The notes beneath the pieces are model-generated. The model had not been told where the DNA came from. It saw only the letters and a list, made by a program, of their open reading frames with translations, and did not search any database. A stretch of 64,000 nucleotides of DNA from Lentilactobacillus curieae (GTDB taxonomy: Bacteria > Bacillota > Bacilli > Lactobacillales > Lactobacillaceae): contig NZ_CP018906.1 of the NCBI RefSeq assembly GCF_000785105.2, positions 682,001 to 746,000 on the forward strand, in the 5' to 3' direction. Positions 29,314 to 41,370 of this stretch are shown piece after piece. The number at the start of each line of letters is the position of its first letter. Position 1 is the stretch's first letter. Made by a program: the position numbers and the translations under genes.

Positions 29314-30642
29314 ATGAGTTTGGCTAACACATCATTCGTTATACTTTCCAGTATCTTAGTATTATTTATGACTCCAGGCCTGGCATTTTTCTATGGTGGT
29401 CTAGTTTCAAAAAGAAACGTAGTCAATACAATGCTATCTGTTTTCATAATGACTGGAGTAGCAATTTTACTTTGGATCATCGTTGGCTACTCATTATCAT
29501 TCAGCGGTGACCACTTTGGATTCATCGGTGATTTGAATCACTTCTTTATGCACGGATTTAAAGCTGATAGTCTTACAGCTACTAAAATCCCTGAAAGCAT
29601 CTACTCTTTGTTTCAGATGATGTTTGCAATCATTACCCCCGCACTATTCGTTGGTGCGGTTGTCGGCAGAATCAAATTCAATTTCTTATTAGTTTTTTTG
29701 ATTGTCTGGTCAATTTTGGTTTATTACCCTATGGTGCACATGGTTTGGAGTACAGGCGGCATTCTTGCTAAACTAGGCACCCTTGATTTTGCAGGTGGAA
29801 CTGTCGTCCACATCAATGCCGGAGTTACAGCATTCGTTCTATCAGCATTTCTTGGCAAAAGAATTCACTATGGTGATATCCCTCACACCCATTACAACCT
29901 TCCATGGGTACTTCTAGGAACCGCAATTCTTTGGATTGGTTGGTATGGATTCAACGCCGGTTCAGCCTTGGCGGTCAACAACGTAGCCGTTGCCGCGGTA
30001 GTCACCACCACGGTCTCAACTGGGACTGCAATGGTAACTTGGATGATTCTTGACATGATTATTTCTGGAAAACCAACGTTAGTCGGGGTATGTACGGGAA
30101 CGCTTTGTGGTTTAGTTGGGATTACCCCCGCAGCTGGTTTCGTAACCATCCCCGGAGCATTTGCCATCGGAATTCTTGCCACACTAGCAAGTTACTTCTT
30201 TGTATCTCAATTAAAAGACCGAATCGGAATTGACGATGCTCTAGACGCCTTTGGTTGTCACGGAATTAGTGGAATCGTTGGTAGTATTGCGACTGGCTTG
30301 TTTGCCACTAAAAGTGTTAACCCTATCGTTACTTCAAACGGCTTGTTTTATGGGGGTGGCTGGAAACTACTCGGAATCCAAATCACAGCTACTTTATTTA
30401 CCATCGTATTTGTAATTATCGCCTGCTCCATCATCATTAAGGGGCTTTCTCTAGTTATGCCAATGCGCGTCAACCGAAAAGAAGAAGAGCTAGGATTGGA
30501 TAAAGGTGAACATGGTGAAGAAGTTGATTACACTATTGAGATGTCACAAGACATCGATACGTATCGCAGTGATCTCAGTGTTTACAGTAAAGAATTCCGC
30601 GGCCAGATTGGTCAGTTGACTAAGCATTCAGATCCAGATTGA
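29314..30642 (+). CDS. amtB: Ammonium transporter
   Basis: 442 aa, an Amt/Mep/Rh channel with eleven membrane segments. It has the family stretch LDFAGGTVVHINAG with pore H166 and DAFGCHGISG with the second pore H316, so the twin-histidine pair is intact, and W145 in HMVWSTGG. The cytoplasmic tail of about 60 residues is charged. No glnK gene is adjacent. A consensus GlnR box sits just upstream, so expression should follow nitrogen status. A second, diverged paralogue lies at 36973-38076. Confidence 0.95.
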   Translation: MSLANTSFVILSSILVLFMTPGLAFFYGGLVSKRNVVNTMLSVFIMTGVAILLWIIVGYSLSFSGDHFGFIGDLNHFFMHGFKADSLTATKIPESIYSLFQMMFAIITPALFVGAVVGRIKFNFLLVFLIVWSILVYYPMVHMVWSTGGILAKLGTLDFAGGTVVHINAGVTAFVLSAFLGKRIHYGDIPHTHYNLPWVLLGTAILWIGWYGFNAGSALAVNNVAVAAVVTTTVSTGTAMVTWMILDMIISGKPTLVGVCTGTLCGLVGITPAAGFVTIPGAFAIGILATLASYFFVSQLKDRIGIDDALDAFGCHGISGIVGSIATGLFATKSVNPIVTSNGLFYGGGWKLLGIQITATLFTIVFVIIACSIIIKGLSLVMPMRVNRKEEELGLDKGEHGEEVDYTIEMSQDIDTYRSDLSVYSKEFRGQIGQLTKHSDPD

Positions 30643-31240: not shown

Positions 31241-33025
31241 CTAATGAACAAATCCAGCATAAATCACGTATTTGTGACCATGACGATCACTAATTAAATC
31301 GTAGTTTAGCTTATGGCCTTGTTTCTCAATCACAAGTTTTGCTTTTACCGTGAATTGCTTGTGAGTCCTAGTTTTAACCCACTTGTTCAAATGGTAATTA
31401 CTATAAAATCTATGGCTTCCTGAAACCTTGACATAACGTTTCCCCTTAACAAACTTAGTAGCTAATAAGTCAGCGGAATTGTTCTTTTTAACCGGTTTTG
31501 CAGGCTGGCTAGTAGAACTATTTGAATTTACAACAGGAGCAGGATTTTGAACTGCTGGCGTTGAATTAGTTGATTCAGTTGGAGCTACCGGTTGGGAGCT
31601 TGGTTGTTGGGTCTGACTAACCGGTTGTTGCGTAGATGGTTGCTCAACCGGACTCGCCGGCTTAGCTGGAACTGATGGTTTTATGACTTTCGCAGGCTTA
31701 ACCTTAATAACTTCAACCTTATCGCCCTTTTCACCGCCAATTAGGTTAAAGTTCATCTCACCAACCTGAGTATAACCGTCAATATCGAAGTGATAAATAA
31801 CATCTCTAATAAATTCTTTGTCATCTGTCGATACGGTTACCAGACCATTCTTATCGGTACGTTTAGCGATTTTTTGGTTATCTTTAACGGCACCATTTAG
31901 ATTAGGAATTTCTGTTAAATTGGCATTCTTAACGGGTTTTCCAGTGTCTGCGTCAACAATCTTAAATACTCTTTTTCCAGCAAGGTATGCAAAGGCATCA
32001 ACTTCAACGTCTAGTTTCTGCTTATCACCAAATTTAAACGATTCTGTGAGTGGCTTGACTTTTTGATTATCTGAATACAAGACAAGTTTGTATGTTTGGC
32101 CCTTAACCAACCCATCTTTAGTTGTCAAAGTAGCTCCAGTATTTGCAAGACTAGGATATTCATCGGTAGTCTTTTTGATCACCTTGGTAGTAATGAGCTT
32201 TTGGCCATCGTAAACTTTCACCGTTAGGTCTTTGCCATAGGCAGCAGGAGAGCCATTTTGTAAGCTAAATACTAGCGCCTCACTGGTTTCGACCTGGGGC
32301 TTTGCGACTGTTACAGGCTTAACCTTGATGACTTCAACCTTATCACCTTTTTCACCACCGATTAAGTTAAAGTTCATTACACCAACTTGGTTGTAACCAT
32401 CAATATCGAAGTGGTAAATAACATCTCTAATAAATTCTTTGTCATCCGTCGATACGGTTACCAAACCATTCTCATCGGTGTGCTTAGCGATTTTTTGGTT
32501 ATCTTTAACGGCACCATTTAGATTAGGAATTTCTTTCAAACTAGTATTAGCAATTGGTTTTCCAGAATCAGCATCAACAATCTTAAATACTCTTTTTCCA
32601 GCAAGGTATGCAAAGGCATCAACTTCAACATCTAGTTCTTGCTTATCACCAAATTCAAATGTTTCTGTAAGTGGCTTTACTTGTTGATTATCCGAAGTCA
32701 AGACAAGTTTATACGTTCTCCCCTTAACTAACCCATCCTTTGTGGTTAACGTAACTCCAGTATTTGCAAGACTAGGATACTCGTCGGTAGTCTTTTTGAT
32801 CACCTTGGTAGTAACGAGCTTTTGGCCATCGTAAACTTTCACCGTTAGGTCTTTGCCATAGGCAGCAGGAGAGCCATTTTGTAAGCTAAATACTAATGCC
32901 TCACTGGTTTCGGCTTGGGGCTTTGCAGCTACTTGTGAGCTGGTAGTGGCCGCAACTGCATTATCTGCAAAAGCACCAACTCCCAATAATGCTGCTACTG
33001 ATAAAAATATGTATCTCTTTTTCAA
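31241..33025 (-). CDS. Secreted repeat-containing surface protein
   Basis: 594 aa. A signal peptide (KKR then a hydrophobic run, cleavage near AVA-A at about 25) is followed by two near-identical 207-aa repeats (621-bp period in the DNA), each with YGKDLTVKVYDGQKL and AGKRVFKIVDADSGK-type beta-rich stretches. Then comes a Pro/Gln/Ser-rich linker (about 440-510) and a basic aromatic C-terminal domain of about 80 residues resembling lactobacillar wall-binding modules. There is no LPxTG, so attachment is probably non-covalent. The start is TTG with AGGAGGAGA. A perfect-arm Zur-like box lies 20 bp upstream, so it is probably made when zinc is scarce. Its partner is unknown. Confidence 0.78.
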   Translation of the reverse strand: MKKRYIFLSVAALLGVGAFADNAVAATTSSQVAAKPQAETSEALVFSLQNGSPAAYGKDLTVKVYDGQKLVTTKVIKKTTDEYPSLANTGVTLTTKDGLVKGRTYKLVLTSDNQQVKPLTETFEFGDKQELDVEVDAFAYLAGKRVFKIVDADSGKPIANTSLKEIPNLNGAVKDNQKIAKHTDENGLVTVSTDDKEFIRDVIYHFDIDGYNQVGVMNFNLIGGEKGDKVEVIKVKPVTVAKPQVETSEALVFSLQNGSPAAYGKDLTVKVYDGQKLITTKVIKKTTDEYPSLANTGATLTTKDGLVKGQTYKLVLYSDNQKVKPLTESFKFGDKQKLDVEVDAFAYLAGKRVFKIVDADTGKPVKNANLTEIPNLNGAVKDNQKIAKRTDKNGLVTVSTDDKEFIRDVIYHFDIDGYTQVGEMNFNLIGGEKGDKVEVIKVKPAKVIKPSVPAKPASPVEQPSTQQPVSQTQQPSSQPVAPTESTNSTPAVQNPAPVVNSNSSTSQPAKPVKKNNSADLLATKFVKGKRYVKVSGSHRFYSNYHLNKWVKTRTHKQFTVKAKLVIEKQGHKLNYDLISDRHGHKYVIYAGFVH

Positions 33026-33045: not shown

Positions 33046-33068
33046 TAAATAGTAATCGTTACTATTTA
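33046..33068. promoter_or_regulatory. Zur-like box 1 (surface-protein promoter)
   Basis: Ten-base perfect inverted arms TAAATAGTAA and TTACTATTTA flank a 3-nt centre TCG. This is the best of five related boxes in the window. It resembles Zur sites of Bacillus (TCGTAATNATTACGA type). It lies just before the ribosome site of the surface-protein gene. Confidence 0.75.
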
Positions 33069-33194: not shown

Positions 33195-33479
33195 ATGGAC
33201 GAAGAACAAAGCCGCAAATTGTATCACATCACCCGCGCACTCAATAACCCAATCCGATTGCAAATCTTGTATAGTTTGCTCAATAATGGCCACCAGAACG
33301 TCACTGCACTAGTAAACCAAGTGAAGGTCAGCCAGCCAGCCGTATCGCACCATATTCGTATTCTTGCCGACTCTGCACTTGTTTGTTTCCACACCCATGG
33401 AAAGGAAAAATTCTTTGATTTGGCTGATGATCACGTGAAGCAAATACTGGAAATCTTAAGTTCACATTTAACTGAGTAA
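33195..33479 (+). CDS. ArsR/SmtB-family zinc-sensing repressor
   Basis: 94 aa, a winged-helix repressor with the recognition helix in VKVSQPAVSHHIRILADSALV (about 44-64). The C-terminal helix carries D78-x-H80-x10-H91-x2-E94, the exact spacing of the alpha-5 zinc site of SmtB (D104, H106, H117, E120). It should release DNA when Zn(II), or a similar ion, binds. A 10-bp inverted repeat lies nine bases past its stop, over the promoter of the histidine-rich gene, its probable target. TTAATA-17-TATGAT lies upstream. Confidence 0.88.
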   Translation: MDEEQSRKLYHITRALNNPIRLQILYSLLNNGHQNVTALVNQVKVSQPAVSHHIRILADSALVCFHTHGKEKFFDLADDHVKQILEILSSHLTE

Positions 33480-33484
33480 ATTTC

Positions 33485-33514
33485 TTGATAAACATATCAA
33501 CATATGTTTATATA
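33485..33514 (+). promoter_or_regulatory. Promoter with ArsR-type operator for the His-rich gene
   Basis: TTGATA at 33485-33490 and TATATA at 33509-33514 form a promoter. Between and over them lies a perfect inverted repeat, ATAAACATAT-caac-ATATGTTTAT (33488-33511). A repressor bound here would block RNA polymerase. The adjacent SmtB-type protein is the obvious candidate. Confidence 0.75.
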
Positions 33515-33560
33515 TAGATGTAGGAAGAAACCGTTTTCATTATCTAGGGAGGAATTTACT

Positions 33561-33893
33561 ATGGCAGACAACAAAGCAGAAGTAATTAAAAACCATGTAC
33601 ACTCATTAGAGTGTGGACACACGAAATTACTGCATGAAGGCCACGTAGATTACGTAGAAGCAAATGGGCATCTTCATCATAAACATGAAGACCATTGGGA
33701 CGAGTGCAAGATTGAAGTAACCGACATGAATCCAGATGCTGAAACTCCAGTTAAAGGCGAGATCCATGACGAATACTGCGGACATGAAACTGTTCCTCAC
33801 GGCGACCACGTTGACTACTTGGTAAACGGACGTTTACAACACGTTCATGATGGTCACGTTGATGATCACGGACCTGTTGATGTGGTAAGCTAA
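33561..33893 (+). CDS. Histidine-rich, internally duplicated metal-binding protein
   Basis: 110 aa from the ATG at 33561 (AGGGAGGAATTTAC upstream); an earlier in-frame ATG at 33504 lies inside the promoter and is rejected. It is cytoplasmic and acidic. Two copies of the pattern C-G-H-x(4,5)-H-x-x-H-V-D-Y-x(4,5)-[GR]-x-L-x-H-x-H-x-x-H are seen, from about 10-44 and 67-103, giving more than 20 histidines. It sits behind an SmtB-type sensor and its operator, so a zinc-storage or buffering role under metal excess is likely but unproven. Confidence 0.75.
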   Translation: MADNKAEVIKNHVHSLECGHTKLLHEGHVDYVEANGHLHHKHEDHWDECKIEVTDMNPDAETPVKGEIHDEYCGHETVPHGDHVDYLVNGRLQHVHDGHVDDHGPVDVVS

Positions 33894-33964: not shown

Positions 33965-34915
33965 TTATTTTGCTAAACCTTCAGCAATCTTATCTAAGTT
34001 CCACTTCATCATGCCATAATAACTGTCACCAGTTTGGCCTTTTTTAGCAATTGAATCAGTAAATAGCGTTGAGTAAATTGGAATTCCCGTATCTCTAGAA
34101 ACTGTCTTCATTGGTTTTCTACTTACACTACTTTCAACAAAAATTGATGAAACCTTTGTCTTCTTTAGTTTGCGTACTAAAGTCTTAATTTGATCAGGTG
34201 AGCCTTCAACTTCAGTGTTAATTTCCCAAATGTAAGCTGAAGGAACATTGTATGCCTTACTGAAGTACTTAAAGCAACCTTCACTAGTAACAATTAATTT
34301 CTTGTCCTTAGGGATCTTATTAAATGCTTTCTTTGCTTTGGCATCAAGCTTTTGTAGCTTACCAACATAAGCATTCAAGTTCTTTTGGTAATCAGACTTA
34401 TGCTTAGGATCTACTCTTTCAAGTTGCTTAGCAATATTTTTGGCATAAATAATTCCGTTCTCAAGGTTTAACCATGCATGGGGATCTTCTTTATTAGTTT
34501 GACCCTTACCTTCTAAGTGAATGGCATCAACGCCTTCACTAGCAGCAAATGACTTTTTCTTAACTTTTTCACCAAGATTATTTTGCATCTTAGTGAACCA
34601 GGCATTCTTAGCATTTTCTAGGTTAAGACCATTGTAAAATACTAAATCAGCTTTAGCGGTTTTAGAAACGTCTTCTGGAAGTGGATCATATTCATGAGGG
34701 TCTTGACCTGTTGGAACGATTACATGAATATCAGCGTGATTTTTAGCAACGTTTTTTGCAATATCACCGATAATTGTGTCCGTTGCAACAACAGATACCT
34801 TGCATGATGCATTAGTATTTTGTGAACTATCTTTTGACTTTGATTGGCTACATGCAGTTAGTGTAAGACCTAGAACCGCAACAAGGGCTAGTCTAAGAAT
34901 CGATTTCAGTTTCAT
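33965..34915 (-). CDS. mtsA: Manganese-type ABC transporter substrate-binding lipoprotein
   Basis: 316 aa. The lipobox LTAC gives lipidated C22. The four metal ligands of the PsaA/MtsA group can be placed: H74 (DPHEYDP), H146 (DPHAWLN), E212 (TSEGCFKYF) and D287 (FTDSIA). This set is that of Mn/Fe binders rather than the three-His zinc proteins, and there is no His-rich loop. It delivers the ion to the permease encoded upstream, whose end it overlaps by 23 bp. Third gene of the ATPase-permease-lipoprotein operon; the promoter carries a weaker Zur-like box. Confidence 0.9.
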
Positions 34916-35753
34916 TGGATAATCTCCTCCGGTGGATTAGTGTTTGTTTTGGTGAAAAGATGAAGCTAATTGCAAAAATTATAGCCCCCACAATTACAAT
35001 GCATGAGCCAACAGCAATATTTAAGTTATATCCTATAAACAAACCTAGTACTGAGGTCACTCCACCGAGAGTTGCGGAAACAATAATCATCGACTTTAAT
35101 TTATTGCAGAACAAGTAAGCTGTTGCCGCTGGCGTAACAAGCAGTGAAACAATTAAGATTGTTCCCACACTTTGCATTGAAACGACTGATACCAACGTAA
35201 GCATTGCCATTAATAGGTAATGATATGCGTTGACACGCATTCCAAGTGCTTTGGCCATGGTTGGGTCAAATGAAGTTAATAATAATTCCTTGAAAAATAA
35301 TCCAACCAAAATTAAAACAACTACTGATACTCCAATAGTTAAATACATATCTTGATCTTGAACTGCCAACACATTTCCAAATAAAATATGAAACAGGTTG
35401 GTAGTAGTTGGAACGAGGGCAATCAAAATCACTCCTAGTGCCAAAAAGGTACTAAAGGTAATTCCAATGGCCGTGTCGCTTTTAATGACACTATTCTGTC
35501 TGATTAATGTTATTAAAAACGATGCGACAATCCCGAAAATTGCAGCTCCAATTAACGGATGAATTCCAAACATGAACGAGATTGCAACCCCTGGTAACAC
35601 CGCATGTGAGATTGCATCGCCCATTAAGGACATTCCCCTTAGAATGATAAAACTTCCGATAGTTCCGGCAATTATTCCGATTACTACCGAGGTGATCAAA
35701 GCGTTTTGTAAAAAGTGAAACTCTTGAAGTCCACTAATAAAATTAGTAATCAT
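34893..35753 (-). CDS. mtsC: Metal ABC transporter permease
   Basis: 286 aa from the ATG at 35753, behind AGGGAGGATAAT; an in-frame ATG at 35798 lies inside the ATPase gene. Eight or nine membrane segments of the ABC-3 family, with the stretches [21 protein letters not shown] and [16 protein letters not shown] characteristic of Mn/Zn permeases. Works with the adjacent ATPase and lipoprotein. Confidence 0.92.
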
Positions 35754-35763
35754 ATTATCCTCC

Positions 35764-36489
35764 CTATACTTCCAGCATTGGCAATCCGTACGCTGCACTC
35801 ATATTCTTTGAATTGAATGTATCGTCCGTTTTTCCTGCTGCAATCAAGTTCTTCTTAATGATTACCGTATTATCAAAATACTCTGAAACCTTATTCAAAT
35901 CATGATGAACCATCAAAATCGTCTTTCCTTCAGCTTTAAGTTCACGCAAGATTTTCATAATCGTTGCTTCACTATGAGCATCAATTCCAGCAAATGGTTC
36001 ATCTAACAGAATTAATTCTGGTTGTTGAATAATACAACGGCCAATCATAACTCGCTGAAGTTGTCCGCCTGATAGTTGGCCAATTTGTCGATCAGCGAAT
36101 TCGGTCATCTCAATTCGATCCATGACACTTTCGATTTCATGGCGATATTTCTTTTTGCTTAGTCGTTGAAACAACCTTAGCCTTGGCAAGATTCCCAAAC
36201 CGATTGTTTCTGCAACTGTAATCGGAAAGTTCAGATCAACCTTACTCTTCTGTTGTACGTACCCAATCTTTTTTGCCATTTGGGGAAGGCTCACACCATC
36301 AAAGGTTGCTCCTCCTTCGTGGGGGATAACTCCTAAAATGGAATTCAATAGTGTGGATTTCCCCGCACCGTTTGGGCCGATGATTCCAGTAATTGTACCA
36401 GTGGGAACTGAAAATGATACATCCGATAGCACTTTCTTCCGATTCTGGTAGACAACACTGACTCCGTTGACAATAAGTATGTGAATCAT
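35764..36489 (-). CDS. mtsB: Metal ABC transporter ATP-binding protein
   Basis: 241 aa. Walker A GPNGAGKST, signature LSGGQLQRV, Walker B LILLDEP and H-loop MVHHD are all present. First gene of the manganese-type ABC operon. The start is odd: the ATG at 36489 is directly fused to AAGGA, with an in-frame stop six bases before it, so there is no upstream alternative. A near-perfect AGGAGGTGA site lies 46 bp further upstream without its own long gene. Confidence 0.9.
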   Translation of the reverse strand: MIHILIVNGVSVVYQNRKKVLSDVSFSVPTGTITGIIGPNGAGKSTLLNSILGVIPHEGGATFDGVSLPQMAKKIGYVQQKSKVDLNFPITVAETIGLGILPRLRLFQRLSKKKYRHEIESVMDRIEMTEFADRQIGQLSGGQLQRVMIGRCIIQQPELILLDEPFAGIDAHSEATIMKILRELKAEGKTILMVHHDLNKVSEYFDNTVIIKKNLIAAGKTDDTFNSKNMSAAYGLPMLEV

Positions 36490-36549: not shown

Positions 36550-36596
36550 AAGATATAGGAATTTCCCACCCCCGTCAATAGTAATTTTTACTCTTT
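36550..36596 (-). promoter_or_regulatory. Mn ABC operon promoter with Zur-like box 2
   Basis: TTGACG (36578-36573) and TATCTT (36555-36550) on the minus strand are 17 bp apart. A box at 36576-36596 (AATAGTAATTTTTACT core) matches box 1 at 17 of 21 positions and touches the -35 element. It is the weakest of the five. Confidence 0.55.
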
Positions 36597-36619: not shown

Positions 36620-36670
36620 TTGACATTTCAGCAAAATGCTTTAATATTTAAATGGTATTAGTTACTATTT
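36620..36670 (+). promoter_or_regulatory. Promoter and Zur-like box 3 for L33 gene
   Basis: TTGACA (36620-36625) and TAATAT (36642-36647), 16 bp apart. Just downstream at 36650-36670 is a box with core GGTATTAGTTACTATT, matching box 1 at 17 of 21 positions, over the probable transcription start. Confidence 0.68.
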
Positions 36671-36687: not shown

Positions 36688-36837
36688 ATGCGCATCAATA
36701 TCGTATTACGCAATAAAGAAACTGGCGAAGAATACTTAACCAGTAAAAACCGTCGTAATAACCCAGATAGAATCAAATTGATGAAGTATTCACCAAAACT
36801 TCACAAACGAGTTATTTTCGAAGAAAAGAAAAACTAA
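36688..36837 (+). CDS. rpmG: Ribosomal protein bL33, zinc-independent (C-minus) form
   Basis: 49 aa, the normal length. The L33 fold signature ([19 protein letters not shown]) is intact, but both CxxC pairs of the zinc form are gone: the first is replaced by RNKET and the second by SPKL. In Bacillus and Streptomyces such cysteine-free paralogues replace the zinc form under zinc starvation through Zur. The upstream Zur-like box fits. AAGGAGG lies before the ATG. Confidence 0.93.
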
Positions 36838-36894: not shown

Positions 36895-36948
36895 TTGACA
36901 AATCTTTGTGATTGGATTCATAATGTTAAACCGTAACGATTACTATTT
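36895..36948 (+). promoter_or_regulatory. Promoter and Zur-like box 4 for the AmtB-like/flavoprotein operon
   Basis: TTGACA (36895-36900) and CATAAT (36919-36924), 18 bp apart. The box at 36928-36948 has core CGTAACGATTACTATT; its arms match box 1 while the centre differs. It lies downstream of the -10 element, in the repressing position. Confidence 0.65.
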
Positions 36949-36972
36949 ACGATTTTGGAGATGATAGGTCAT

Positions 36973-38076
36973 TTGAATGATAATTTTGTTTTGCTCTGCT
37001 CGCTCGTAATGATTCCCATGATTTTCTTTGTCCCGGTAATGTACATAAACAGCTACCCCGATAGCGAATCAGACAATCATCTAACATCAATGATTACCGC
37101 ATTACTCTGTGGAATTGCTTGTTGGATAATCTTCGGTAACTCTGAATCTTTCCACTTTGGTTTTTCTAGTCTAAGTCTCCAAAGTGGGAATCCAGACATA
37201 ACATTACTCTCACAAATGTGCTTTTATTTGTATTCAATCGTAATGTTTACCGGAACTGTTCTAAGAAATGCCAGCTGGAAATTCTTTGTCGGCTTTATCC
37301 CCCTCTGGACGCTATTGGTCTACGCCCCAATTGCGAACCTAATTTGGTCACCGACCGGAGTTCTCTATAAAATGGGAGCTCTAGACTTTTCCGGCGGGCT
37401 AGTTGTCCATTTGACCGCAGGATTGACCAGCCTAATTTTGTCAGTTTTTATGCGAAACAACCGAATTAAATTACCCAAAGATAACCAACTGCTAAATTAC
37501 GTTGCCACCTTGTTTATCCTAACCGGCTGGCTTGGCTTTAACCTTGCCCCCGCAGGTGTATTCAGCAACGGTGGATCCTCGATCATCGTAAATACCTTAG
37601 TTGCAGTTATCGGATCAGTAATTGGCTGGACATACAGCAGTAACCTTGGACTTTCTTCAGATGCAGGTGCCGTGTACAACGGGATTATCTGTGGACTCGT
37701 TGCCAGTACAGCTCTCGTAGCCTACGTTTCAACCTTATCAATGCTCATTGTAGCGTTAGTTAGTGGCATTATTTGCCACTACATGTGTGAGCTCCTGTCA
37801 GCATCAGACATCTTCCATGATCCAGTCGATTCATTTGCAATAAATGGTATCGGTGGAATTGTTGGAACTCTTGGTTTAATTCTGTTTGCAAGCCCAATTG
37901 TCAACAAAGATGGCGCAATTGGATTACTTGCAGGTGGTTTTAACTTTACTGGTGTTGAATTATTAACCCTCCTCACCACAACTCTAATTACGTTACTTGG
38001 CACATTGATCAGTTTAGGAATTGTAAAGGCTATAAAGGAGCTTAAAGTCCGAACAGGAAAGGAAGAAGCATTTTGA
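36973..38076 (+). CDS. AmtB-family paralogue lacking the second pore histidine
   Basis: About 367 aa from a TTG at 36973; the ATG at 36961 is fused to GGAG, and the frame reaches 36955, so the start is uncertain. Amt/Mep/Rh fold with about eleven segments. It retains LDFSGGLVVHLTAG (H146) and the Trp in NLIWSP, but DAFGCHG of true AmtB is SFAINGIGG here: Asn291 replaces the second pore His (codon at 37843-37845). The C-terminal tail is short. It follows a Zur-like box, not a GlnR box, and overlaps the flavoprotein gene by four bases. Ammonium conduction is doubtful; a role in zinc starvation is inferred. Confidence 0.8.
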   Translation: MNDNFVLLCSLVMIPMIFFVPVMYINSYPDSESDNHLTSMITALLCGIACWIIFGNSESFHFGFSSLSLQSGNPDITLLSQMCFYLYSIVMFTGTVLRNASWKFFVGFIPLWTLLVYAPIANLIWSPTGVLYKMGALDFSGGLVVHLTAGLTSLILSVFMRNNRIKLPKDNQLLNYVATLFILTGWLGFNLAPAGVFSNGGSSIIVNTLVAVIGSVIGWTYSSNLGLSSDAGAVYNGIICGLVASTALVAYVSTLSMLIVALVSGIICHYMCELLSASDIFHDPVDSFAINGIGGIVGTLGLILFASPIVNKDGAIGLLAGGFNFTGVELLTLLTTTLITLLGTLISLGIVKAIKELKVRTGKEEAF

Positions 38077-39188
38077 ACGTTAACTACTCAGTCGCAATAA
38101 TTGGGGCAGGTCCCGCTGGGATTGGCCTTGGAACAGCCTTGCAAAATTACGGAATCAATAACTTCGTAATTCTAGAAAAGGATTATGTGGGTGCTACTTT
38201 CGATAAATGGAATAAAGAGACTCACTTCATTTCACCATCCTTTACTACGAATGGTTTTGGTGCACCCGATTTAAATTCCATTACAACAGATACTTCACCA
38301 GCATATTCAATCAATTCAGAACATCCCTCTGGAAAGCAATATGCAAATTACCTTCGCTTAGTAGCGATGATGAATCATCTACCCGTCATTCAAAACACAG
38401 CGGTTAAAGATATTATCCCTTCTGGAAACCACTATGAATTGATGCTTTCATCATCAGAAGTGATTGAGGCTCAATATGTATTTATTGGAATTGGTGACTA
38501 TTCATATCCTTATCGCCCTGACATTTCAGGGAGCAACTATGGGCTGCACTACGTGGATATTCAAGATTACGACGATTTTGAACGCAAACCGCAAACCATC
38601 ATCGGTGGTAATGAAGCTGGCATTGATATCGCTGTCAATCTTGCCAAACGAGGTATCCCGTCAACAATTTATACCGACGAAAGTGGTCTCGAATCAAAAT
38701 CAGCTGATCCTAGCAAAAGATTATCAACCTACACCACCAGTCGTTATTTGAACTATGCGAATATGATTAATATTGAGTCTAATAAGAAACTCGTGGCTAT
38801 TAAAAAAACAACCTCTGAATATAACCTCACATTTCGTGATGCCTCAACAGCAATATCACAAACCAGACCAATATTTGCAACCGGGTTTGCGGTTTCGCAA
38901 AGCCCATTGATCAGTAATCTCTTCGAAGTTAGTTCAAATCGTCCTGTACTCACAGCCTCCGACGAATCAACAATCCATCCCAATGTCTTTTTGATTGGTC
39001 CACAGGTAACACATGACGACGTAGTACTTTGTTACATCTATAAATACCGCCAACGTTTTGCACCGTTGGCAGAAGAAATTCTAGCTCGCAACAATCTGGC
39101 AGCTAATCCACAAATCACTCAAGCGTACAAAAACGCAAACATGTTTTTAGATGACTTTGACGATTGTGATGTAAACTGCGAGTGTTGA
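38073..39188 (+). CDS. FAD/NAD(P)-binding flavoprotein with C-terminal Cys tail
   Basis: 371 aa. FAD motif GAGPAG at 11-16 and a second dinucleotide motif GGNEAG near 180 place it with flavin monooxygenase/thioredoxin-reductase-like enzymes. There is no CxxC redox pair in the body. It ends in D-D-C-D-V-N-C-E-C: C365, C369 and C371 are the last residues, after a run of Asp, a plausible metal or thiol site. The TTG start overlaps the AmtB-like stop (TTGA), with AAAGGAAG upstream, so translation is coupled. Substrate unknown. Confidence 0.8.
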   Translation: MNVNYSVAIIGAGPAGIGLGTALQNYGINNFVILEKDYVGATFDKWNKETHFISPSFTTNGFGAPDLNSITTDTSPAYSINSEHPSGKQYANYLRLVAMMNHLPVIQNTAVKDIIPSGNHYELMLSSSEVIEAQYVFIGIGDYSYPYRPDISGSNYGLHYVDIQDYDDFERKPQTIIGGNEAGIDIAVNLAKRGIPSTIYTDESGLESKSADPSKRLSTYTTSRYLNYANMINIESNKKLVAIKKTTSEYNLTFRDASTAISQTRPIFATGFAVSQSPLISNLFEVSSNRPVLTASDESTIHPNVFLIGPQVTHDDVVLCYIYKYRQRFAPLAEEILARNNLAANPQITQAYKNANMFLDDFDDCDVNCEC

Positions 39189-39209
39189 TGTACCGAAAGG
39201 AGAATTCCT

Positions 39210-39341
39210 TTGGAGAAACAAGATCTTGCTTCTGCTTACCGGCGAATGAAGAGTCCTAACATTAAGACTCGTAAGCGTGCCTTGAAAATCATTCACGAAG
39301 TTAAGCGACAAAAGAAGCACAATGCATTGGCAAGTAAGTAA
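39210..39341 (+). CDS. Small basic protein, putative metal homeostasis family
   Basis: 43 aa, TTG start with AAAGGAG seven bases upstream, 21 bp after the flavoprotein stop and before a strong terminator, so third gene of that operon. The sequence is very basic (AYRRMKSPNIKTRKRALKII in the middle). I recall similar short lactobacillar proteins catalogued as putative metal homeostasis proteins, but the function is unknown and no metal ligands except two His are visible. Too short for most gene callers. Confidence 0.7.
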   Translation: MEKQDLASAYRRMKSPNIKTRKRALKIIHEVKRQKKHNALASK

Positions 39342-39343
39342 TT

Positions 39344-39393
39344 AAAAAATAGACCTAATTCTGAGTTGCCCCTCAGCGTTAGGTCTATTTTTT
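39344..39393. terminator. Bidirectional terminator
   Basis: A 15-bp perfect stem (AAAAAATAGACCTAA and complement) with an inner CTGAG/CTCAG stem, between the small-protein gene and the converging protease gene. Confidence 0.92.
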
Positions 39394-40294
39394 ATACTCC
39401 AGCTTTTTTCATGTTCAAAGCTAGTTTAGTTCTCATTAAATCCGTTTGTGTAATTGGATTAAACCCATTTTTACTCTTAGCAACCTTCTGATAATCAAAA
39501 ATCTCAGGTCTTTGACTCGACCAGTACATTACGTCAGTTTTGTTTGGTGAATGCTCTAGTCCAAACACATGCCCAAATTCATGGGTGATGATATTTGCAT
39601 ATTGGAATTTACGTGCCTTATAAGCCGTACCATTCTTGTCAATTGAGCTTTGGACTTCTTCTAATTGCTTCTGAACATAGTCAATTTGCTGTTGTCTGTA
39701 ATGTTCCACTTTTGAATAATAATCTGGATCAGACTTTCCTATCTGGTTCGCATACGCCACAATCTTGCGATTAGCGACCGCAGAAAACTGGCTCAAGGAT
39801 TTCTTCAACATTTCATTTCGGATGCCACTAACGGACAATTTATAGTAATAATCACGAACTTGCATTTTCTTTAGTTTTGGAATCCACCATGCATCGCCTG
39901 TATCTACTCCAGAGGTAATTGGTTCCTTAGAAACTGAAAACGTCAGAGTATGGCTACGCTTAGTCCCATACGTAATTACCTTCTTACCTAATTTTTGGTT
40001 CCAATAGTTAACTGCTAATTTAATACTAGATCTTAGAGTCTTGTTTTTAGTTGCCACATAGATTTTGGCGTGACCATTCTTAGTCAGGGCAGTCTGTAAA
40101 CTATAAGTAATGCGATACTTCTTGGCAATTGTCTTAGCATGACTTCGATAGTAAGTTTTCGTTTTTTTAAGCATCGTCGCAGACGGTTTAACACTGCTAG
40201 CATGCACATTAGAGCTTGTTGGAAAGGCAAATAGTGTCAAGGATAAAACTGAAATCATCAGTAGTTTTATCCGTAAGTTAAGCTTGGTTGTCAT
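39392..40294 (-). CDS. Secreted matrixin-like zinc metalloprotease
   Basis: 300 aa. A signal peptide (about 1-32, ending near HAS) is followed by a basic N-terminal region that may act as a propeptide. The zinc motif H238-E-F-G-H242-V-F-G-L-E-H248 is complete, with a Met-turn candidate M256 in TDVMYW, as in metzincins of the matrixin type. Acts outside the cell; substrate unknown. GAGGAGGG precedes the ATG. It has no Zur-like box of its own but lies inside the zinc island. Confidence 0.85.
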   Translation of the reverse strand: MTTKLNLRIKLLMISVLSLTLFAFPTSSNVHASSVKPSATMLKKTKTYYRSHAKTIAKKYRITYSLQTALTKNGHAKIYVATKNKTLRSSIKLAVNYWNQKLGKKVITYGTKRSHTLTFSVSKEPITSGVDTGDAWWIPKLKKMQVRDYYYKLSVSGIRNEMLKKSLSQFSAVANRKIVAYANQIGKSDPDYYSKVEHYRQQQIDYVQKQLEEVQSSIDKNGTAYKARKFQYANIITHEFGHVFGLEHSPNKTDVMYWSSQRPEIFDYQKVAKSKNGFNPITQTDLMRTKLALNMKKAGV

Positions 40295-40414: not shown

Positions 40415-41329
40415 TTATTTTTCAGCGTTCTTCAAAATCTTTTCAAGTTGGCTGTATTGGCTAACCATCCATGATTTGTATGTCTTACCAGCTGGTAAGG
40501 TTTCCGTTACAGGTAATACGGGAACTCCGCTTTTCTTTGAAAGAGAAACCATGTTATCAACGGTCTTTGAATCAACTTGCTTGTTAAATACGAAGAAAGC
40601 AATCTTCTTTCCTTTGATTCCTTCTTGCATATTCTTAATTGTACTTGGAGCTTGATCAACATCGTTTTCAGTGTCTTCTTCAAACTTCTTATTTCCAACC
40701 TTAAAGCCAGCAGCTTCAAGAGCGTAATCAAAAACAGGTTCACTTACATAAACTAATTTTGAATCTGACTTCTTAGCAATTGCATTCAAACTATCAATCT
40801 TTTCATTAATTGGCTTCAATGAATTGATGTACTTTTGAGCATTCTTTTTAAAGTATGCCTTGTTCTTAGGTTGAATTTTACCAAAACGAGCTGCTAATGC
40901 ATTAGCAAGTTTGGGCATAGTTTCTGGCTTGTACCACAAGTGAGGATTGTCACCATCTTTTTTGTTTAATAGTGATTCCCCAACCTTAATGTACTTAACA
41001 TCTGAATTGTTCTTAACCAGTTTATTCATCCAGCCATCATAGCCCACACCATTAGCTACGGCAACGTTTGCCTTAGCAACTTCAGTACCGACTTTAGTAG
41101 TTGGTGTGTAATCATGAGGGTCTACATTAGGATTATTAATAATTGAAGTAACCTTACCCTTGTCCCCAACAACAGCCTTGGCAACTTCACCATAAAAATC
41201 AGTGGTAGTAACAACATTAATCTTACCGCTCTTGGCGTTAGATCCCCCATTAGATGAACAACCAGCGATAAAGAAAATTAGTGAAAACAACGCAGCGAGT
41301 AGAACAAAAAATCTTGATTTCTTGACCAA
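40415..41329 (-). CDS. Orphan zinc-type ABC substrate-binding lipoprotein (AdcA/ZnuA-like)
   Basis: 304 aa. The lipobox IAGC gives lipidated C24. Metal-site residues H72 (VDPHDYTP) and H130 (DNPHLWY) are visible; the third and fourth ligands I cannot assign firmly. It has no permease or ATPase next to it and is diverged from the MtsA-type protein at 33965, so it may feed a transporter encoded elsewhere. The start is TTG with AAGGAG about nine bases upstream. A Zur-like box matching box 1 at 18 of 21 positions lies 20 bp upstream. Confidence 0.85.
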   Translation of the reverse strand: MVKKSRFFVLLAALFSLIFFIAGCSSNGGSNAKSGKINVVTTTDFYGEVAKAVVGDKGKVTSIINNPNVDPHDYTPTTKVGTEVAKANVAVANGVGYDGWMNKLVKNNSDVKYIKVGESLLNKKDGDNPHLWYKPETMPKLANALAARFGKIQPKNKAYFKKNAQKYINSLKPINEKIDSLNAIAKKSDSKLVYVSEPVFDYALEAAGFKVGNKKFEEDTENDVDQAPSTIKNMQEGIKGKKIAFFVFNKQVDSKTVDNMVSLSKKSGVPVLPVTETLPAGKTYKSWMVSQYSQLEKILKNAEK

Positions 41330-41349: not shown

Positions 41350-41370
41350 AAATAGTAATCAATACTTTTT
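41350..41370. promoter_or_regulatory. Zur-like box 5 (zinc lipoprotein promoter)
   Basis: The core TAGTAATCAATACTTTTT matches box 1 at 18 of 21 positions (counting the full 21-bp window). It is just upstream of the ribosome site of the lipoprotein gene. From here to about 41545 I see no gene; the region is AT-rich. Confidence 0.68.

Follow-up and report, generated by a model that had tools for sequence, protein, structure and literature searches.

We analysed a 64,000-nucleotide stretch of the Lentilactobacillus curieae genome (contig NZ_CP018906.1, positions 682,001 to 746,000; hereafter the window, whose first letter is position 1) and examined within it a small operon. This operon encodes an Amt-like channel with Asn in place of the second pore His (HN-Amt), an NAD(P)/FAD-dependent flavoprotein with a cysteine tail (FLAV) and a 43-aa protein. 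It comprises the following features.

36895..36924, plus strand: promoter of the HN-Amt/FLAV operon, sigma-70-type (TTGACA-18-CATAAT, 11/12 matches)
36928..36948, no strand assigned: Zur-type operator of the operon (17/20 against the Zur consensus; none of 30 simulated windows scored above 16)
36955..38076, plus strand: HN-Amt, TTG start (PF00909, E 6.7e-43)
38073..39188, plus strand: FLAV (Pyr_redox_3, E 8.5e-84; PDB 3d1c, E 3.5e-94)
39210..39341, plus strand: 43-aa 'putative metal homeostasis protein' of the RsaX20 sORF family, loosely associated with the other two (NF038026, E 1.5e-22)
39343..39394, plus strand: intrinsic terminator hairpin (-27.3 kcal/mol, z = -10.4)

The initial annotation of this DNA had described three tightly coupled genes under one promoter with a Zur-like box and closed by one terminator, and all of these elements were found: the HN-Amt and FLAV open reading frames (ORFs) overlap by 4 bp, the 43-aa ORF begins 21 bp past FLAV, and the promoter, box and hairpin are present. 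The hairpin folds far better than shuffled sequences; it was absent from the output of a pattern scan. The true start of HN-Amt is probably the TTG at 36973, near where its relatives begin; counted from there the Asn at the second-His position is residue 291, the number first reported, and counted from 36955 it is residue 297. Two finer details also agreed with the alignment and the translations: an Amt paralogue at 29314 has His316 in the same column as the Asn, and FLAV ends in C-x3-C-x-C.

HN-Amt has the Amt fold, with Foldseek matches to AmtB (TM about 0.8) besides the PF00909 match. Against the TIGR00836 'ammonium transporter' model it scored 149.8 bits, below the cut-off of 343.3, compared with 424.9 for the paralogue at 29314. 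Relatives recognized by score came from 13 of 301 genomes of the family, 15 of 395 Lactobacillales and 7 of 98 Streptococcus; in the last sample 24 genomes matched, the 7 best-scoring being HN-Amts and the weaker 17 (E 2.1e-51 to 6.3e-41) being called ordinary by score alone. The pore was aligned for 28 sequences, 22 that cover the pore (the start of the G474 member lies in a separate ORF) and six further streptococcal ones. The position of AmtB His318 is Asn in 28/28, and HN-Amts thus lack the twin-His motif. The initial annotation had proposed such an alignment as a check, and its outcome rules out an oddity of one strain. The same Asn occurs in two broken streptococcal copies, in G248 and in the broken copy of G278. 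Other pore residues have changed as well (AmtB numbering; window residues N297, P199, S293, M97 and Y93): all 28 carry Pro in place of Ser219, 27 carry Ser in place of Val314 (G488 has Thr there), and the window residues Y93, M97 and S293 align with I110, L114 and V314, Y93 and M97 being invariant in the 28. His168, Asp160, Trp148, Phe107 and Phe215 are retained throughout. All 33 ordinary Amts used for comparison have His at the second position, and ten positions, Y93, M97 and S293 among them, set the 22 HN-Amts apart from them (residue present in at least 90% of the former and at most 10% of the latter; a gap column was not counted). In the tree, the HN-Amts form one side of a branch with 100/100 support. 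Individual members are broken or split (G278, G474 with its start in a second ORF, S. penaeicida and S. bovimastitidis), but the ten group-held positions rule out a pseudogene or relaxed channel as a general reading.

HN-Amt and FLAV are an obligate pair. They occur in the identical 15 of 395 Lactobacillales genomes (P = 1.9e-27 if distributed at random, kinship ignored). Within the family sample HN-Amt was found in 13 genomes and FLAV in 15, namely the same 13 plus a partial or broken FLAV in G291 and G087. FLAV is broken or split in G089, G087 and S. bovimastitidis, and the G291 copy is short at its N-terminus. The genes adjoin in 12/13 Lactobacillaceae genomes, so the conserved co-occurrence that the initial annotation had suggested looking for holds for these two; in G256 they stand about 770 bp apart, and in G089 FLAV comes first and is split. 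The exception is G264, where HN-Amt lies next to a second binding-protein gene and FLAV lies on another contig, between a Cys-free L33 gene and the 43-aa gene. The pair is adjacent at all 11 loci from other Lactobacillales families (6 tandem, 5 divergent) and in 7/7 Streptococcus genomes, always divergent. Six E. faecalis plasmid records carry FLAV together with an Amt match of HN-like score, with 343 bp between the matches where coordinates were checked, and because of these records the pair may be mobile. At one locus (L101, 5893-8522), the neighbours of HN-Amt and FLAV are, by reading, genes for a COG0523-type GTPase and for a Fur-family regulator, and no Zur box could be recognised.

Boxes for zinc regulators recur across most lineages that carry the pair or FLAV. 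Zur-type boxes scoring at least 16/20 within 200 bp were present at 14/16 Lactobacillaceae promoters (L036 has its box at -229 and L041 has none), at 7/11 promoters of other Lactobacillales and at 10/14 outside the order, where two more loci, L132 and L139, have the box before the preceding GTPase gene; the background was 5 in 4100 shuffled promoters. One of the four misses in the other Lactobacillales, L097, is a Streptococcus with an AdcR box. An AdcR box lies between the divergent genes at 9/9 streptococcal loci, eight perfect and one with a single mismatch. Publications are cited here by accession and from excerpts of their text; one reports that Streptococcaceae use AdcR and Lactobacillaceae Zur (PMC3616900). 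To judge from the boxes, the same pair thus appears to be controlled by two unrelated zinc regulators, Zur in most lineages and AdcR in Streptococcus. By the initial annotation its proposal would have been refuted by homologues mostly outside zinc contexts; what was seen for the pair is the opposite, zinc-regulator boxes upstream in most lineages. In S. agalactiae, AdcR targets include sak_RS07375, a 'potential ammonium transporter', and sak_RS07380, a 'flavoprotein involved in potassium transport' (PMC11580457). These have the same two annotations as the window pair and neighbouring locus tags, and the Streptococcus relatives suggest that they are its orthologs. The roles of many such AdcR-regulated genes are said there to remain to be defined, and the passages of PMC11580457 on this pair do not mention pore residues or partner exchange. 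In the Zur literature, the terms sought do not appear in PMC6336718 and bring up two passages on other matters in PMC2770081; neither these nor the excerpts of PMC6103462 name such a flavoprotein or FeoB-like gene.

Outside Lactobacillales, FLAV is accompanied by a different membrane protein. In a class-wide sample of 398 genomes, 23 had FLAV at E 1e-70 or better, 22 of them outside the order. At the 14 non-Lactobacillales loci that were fetched, FLAV is followed by an ORF of 444-563 aa whose earliest start touches or overlaps the end of FLAV. Six of these ORFs were given to Pfam: all contain a Gate domain and four a GTPase domain too, the two without it being probably staphylococcal. All six fall below the TIGR00437 FeoB cut-off (52-95 vs 315.65 bits), and GFGCN and C-x2-C-x4-C are conserved in 7/7 aligned partners. 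A profile built from these seven sequences placed the FeoB-like permease beside FLAV on the same strand in 22/22 non-Lactobacillales FLAV genomes (in two pieces in G821). With the same profile it was found in 0/24 HN-Amt genomes, and another 34 genomes outside the FLAV-positive set gave no more than a single weak match (8.6e-16). Of the 22 FeoB-partner genomes, 13 have ordinary Amts away from FLAV, and all 16 of these proteins have the second His, which rules out an HN-Amt in the Bacilli with FeoB-like partners. HN-Amt and the FeoB-like permease thus never occur in one genome among those examined. We infer that HN-Amt stands in for the FeoB-like permease. In the FLAV tree the Lactobacillales and staphylococcal proteins fall together and the Amt group needs two label changes; there was therefore at least one exchange, with perhaps a reversal, or else FLAV passed from one lineage to another. 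The FeoB-like fold is known from divalent-metal permeases. The initial annotation had suggested that the channel was recruited to another substrate or to sensing under zinc scarcity; the exchange of a FeoB-like for an Amt-like partner argues for recruitment to another role. A particular substrate, a sensing role and the suggested modification of a ligand or movement of metal by the flavoprotein are conjectural.

Plasmid records from Acaryochloris (pREC2), Haloferax, Halocatena, Paenibacillus, S. epidermidis and S. arlettae show FLAV followed by a gene annotated as a 'nucleoside recognition' or 'FeoB small GTPase' protein, with a spare S14 gene between the two in Haloferax and Halocatena. Beyond Firmicutes the neighbours of FLAV include annotated ZigA and Fur-family regulators (Acaryochloris), a GTP-binding protein and S14 (two haloarchaea), and a GTP-binding protein, a repressor, aztAB and CysRS (Paracoccus). 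In Paracoccus sp. MA (L179, 3341-9923), two GTP-binding-protein/flavoprotein gene pairs with 4-bp overlaps lie beside a repressor, zinc ABC genes and CysRS, and from this locus FLAV may also work with COG0523-type chaperones. FLAV-like proteins were also seen in plasmid records of Klebsiella (484) and Escherichia (20), with 31% identity in the Klebsiella rows listed.

What the altered pore would conduct can be considered against published work on the twin-His site. Natural variation at this site is stated in a 2020 paper to be confined to a first-His-to-Glu change in fungal Mep proteins (PMC7447429), and our literature search, with subscription journals mostly outside its scope and its sources seen in excerpt, found no natural second-His variants described. 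In the laboratory, the AmtB H168A and H318A substitutions turn the transporter into a K+-passing channel (PMC7447429). Single His mutants take up no methylamine, yet differ markedly from this in their growth on ammonium (PMC3647058), and growth of H318A on ammonium is spelt out in PMC10433425. HN-Amt shares with Amt/Mep/Rh proteins such as E. coli AmtB and A. fulgidus Amt-1 the fold, the Phe gate, Trp148, Asp160 and the first pore His; it differs from them in Asn for the second His, Pro219, Ser314, its low TIGR00836 score, its zinc-regulator boxes and its obligate FLAV partner.

Given the shared residues, the cargo of HN-Amt could still be ammonia, ammonium or a small amine, which FLAV would consume or produce in an amine-handling route needed when zinc enzymes fail. 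The growth of H318A on ammonium (PMC3647058, PMC10433425) and the presence of flavin monooxygenases among the fold matches of FLAV are consistent with this. However, the alternative partner has a divalent-metal permease fold, the ordinary Amt genes of non-Lactobacillales FLAV genomes sit away from FLAV, and all 28 HN-Amts have Pro in place of Ser219, a residue of the S1 site; we consider this explanation unlikely. The laboratory mutants suggest another possibility, that HN-Amt works as a channel for monovalent cations (K+/NH4+) without selectivity, balancing ions when zinc is short, and that FLAV is the redox gate of this channel. Both single His substitutions pass K+ (PMC7447429), and Ser for V314 (27/28), Met for L114 and Tyr for I110 (both 28/28) make the pore less hydrophobic. 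A constant K+ leak would be costly, however, and the interchange with a FeoB-like permease would be left unexplained, so that such a role appears very unlikely. Finally, structures of sensor Amts (6eu6, 8qj3) are among the fold matches, and HN-Amt might be a non-conducting sensor of that type controlling FLAV. This seems highly improbable, as the ORF stops directly past the last helix and includes no signalling domain, and the alternative partner of FLAV is a permease.

The S. aureus structure 3d1c (NP_373108.1), which FLAV matches, is functionally unassigned; it shows 39% identity in structural alignment, belongs to the same family and has the same Cys tail, but in staphylococcal records and in probable Staphylococcaceae genomes the partner is the FeoB-like 'nucleoside recognition' protein, without a GTPase domain in the two scanned. 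The nearest characterised enzyme by fold is the bacillithiol disulfide reductase YpdA/Bdr (TM 0.67-0.80). FLAV remained far below the cut-offs of both TIGR04018 (YpdA/Bdr; E 8.5e-16, 57.6 vs 339.9 bits) and the ArsO/flavin monooxygenase model (45.5 vs 425 bits), flavin monooxygenases being also among its fold matches. In the alignment, GPAG in FLAV stands against GPCG in the YpdA structure, the site of the reactive Cys of YpdA. In contrast to YpdA/Bdr, FLAV lacks this cysteine but has C320 and the C-terminal Cys tail. All 46 sequences compared, from Bacteria and Archaea alike, have C320, and 43-44 of them have the tail cysteines, with the spacing C-x4-C-x-C in the archaeal and Paracoccus proteins. 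The likeness to YpdA/Bdr (TIGR04018) together with the invariant C320 and the tail would fit a role of FLAV in producing or modifying a small thiol or a ligand that binds zinc, or in substituting, without zinc of its own, for a zinc enzyme, with the membrane partner moving that small molecule. However, the missing GPCG cysteine speaks against this, and it is a stretch that one small molecule should pass through two unrelated permease folds. We regard this explanation as unlikely.

In our best explanation, to which we assign a probability of roughly 40%, HN-Amt and FLAV replace the FeoB-like permease as a low-zinc scavenging module with a channel-mode pore, the thiols of FLAV taking the metal. 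The change of the second His to Asn and of the Val gate to Ser would give a wetter pore and a channel-mode path for cations; FLAV would dock at the cytoplasmic mouth of HN-Amt; and its thiols, C320 and those of the C-x3-C-x-C tail, would be kept poised for incoming metal by NAD(P)H and FAD. The pair would thereby serve as a module for zinc scavenging at low supply. Zinc is the most likely cargo because of the FeoB-like partner, the zinc regulators and the zinc-limitation neighbours. A possible mechanistic analogy, with no membership implied, is the MerT/MerA mercury system, in which a membrane importer is combined with a flavoprotein whose C-terminal cysteines accept the metal; however, mercuric reductase (8k41) is only a distant fold match to FLAV, and zinc is not redox-active.

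Several observations weigh against this explanation. We know of no Amt-fold protein that carries a divalent metal. The monovalent-cation entry site is mostly intact (Asp160, Trp148, Phe107, Phe215 and His168), and a conserved Cys, sought across 22 HN-Amts as a direct metal ligand, was not found. On the side of FLAV, the tail is missing in two Periweissella, and the L. fungorum protein (L062) stops past the second Cys; many non-Cys residues are conserved over the 46 sequences, as in an ordinary enzyme with a fixed substrate; and the AlphaFold model has low confidence at the tail (363-371) and around C320 (316-326). At L095, L098 and L101, the remaining misses among the other Lactobacillales and none of them streptococcal, neither a Zur nor an AdcR box was convincing. 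On Acaryochloris pREC1 and in Paracoccus, FLAV stands without either membrane partner next to it. The broader claim, that an Amt-fold protein became a divalent-metal (zinc) channel by losing its second His and hydrophobic gate, replacing a FeoB-like permease in flavoprotein-coupled metal uptake across Bacteria and Archaea, is in our view possible though doubtful.

The third gene of the operon is less closely bound to the other two. Its product scores 79 bits against the curated NF038026 (RsaX20 sORF) cut-off of 30. The gene adjoins the pair or FLAV in 5/13 Lactobacillaceae genomes (the window, G278, G138 and G056, and FLAV in G264) and in 0/11 loci from other Lactobacillales families, so that the three-gene unit first proposed stands for the HN-Amt/FLAV pair but not for the 43-aa gene. 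In S. aureus a Zur motif precedes RsaX20 (PMC5826253), and in S. agalactiae AdcR regulates a gene that bears the annotation 'putative metal homeostasis protein' (PMC11580457). The 43-aa gene is a member of this known zinc-regulated family, loosely attached and not an obligate part of the unit; what distinguishes the window copy is its position directly 3' of HN-Amt and FLAV.

The operon lies within a zinc island, as its neighbours follow the best Zur-type sites of the window.

36688..36837, plus strand: Cys-free paralogue of ribosomal protein L33, upstream neighbour (PF00471, E 2.1e-14), with its own Zur-type box at 36650-36670 (16/20)
33965..36489, minus strand: zinc-type ABC uptake operon of binding protein, permease and ATPase, ORFs identified by reading, with a weaker box at 36576-36596 (15/20)
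40415..41329, minus strand: second zinc-type binding protein, ORF identified by reading, with a box at 41350-41370 (16/20)
31241-33025, minus strand: apparently secreted 594-aa protein, with a box at 33047-33067 (17/20, equal to that of the operon)

A scan of the whole window with the B. subtilis Zur consensus gave 36928 (17), 33047 (17), 41350 (16), 36650 (16) and 36576 (15) as its five best sites. In 30 simulated 64-kb sequences a score of 17 was never reached; scores of at least 16 arose 0.067 times per window and of at least 15 once per window. It is therefore only its place that makes the fifth site convincing. A loose 11-base pattern was uninformative over the genome, with 902 matches, fewer than its own control (1256). 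The genome has two Fur-family genes over cut-off, which are Zur candidates. A homolog of the second binding protein adjoins HN-Amt in G264. The 594-aa protein gave no Pfam match over cut-off; in G264 (L103), the gene ahead of the L33-FLAV-43-aa cluster encodes a 570-aa protein that begins similarly. At 33195-33893 (plus strand), an ArsR/SmtB-type metalloregulator is followed by a His-rich 129-aa protein (HVHSLECGHTKLLHEGHVDY), for which no NCBIfam match was found and which has a close copy next to FLAV in L103. Also within the island, and convergent with the operon, a secreted-looking protein at 39392-40294 (minus strand) carries the zinc-metalloprotease motif HEFGHVFGLEH.

Zinc control of a similar S. 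agalactiae pair and of the 43-aa family was already known. PMC11580457 was the only publication on the pair or the FeoB-like partner among the matches listed, in a search with supplements and most subscription journals outside its scope. Relative to the literature consulted, as represented by its excerpts, three things are new: a natural clade of Amts that lacks the second pore His, the strict coupling of this clade to FLAV, and the exchange between FeoB-like and Amt-like partners. Such a clade offers a direct test of the twin-His model of transporter versus channel, and, even with a cargo other than zinc, HN-Amt would, if this is true, be the first natural channel-mode Amt. The two independent membrane partners provide a handle on the function of the module, and the swap between them around one flavoprotein exposes an apparent, uncharacterised and widespread zinc-starvation module.

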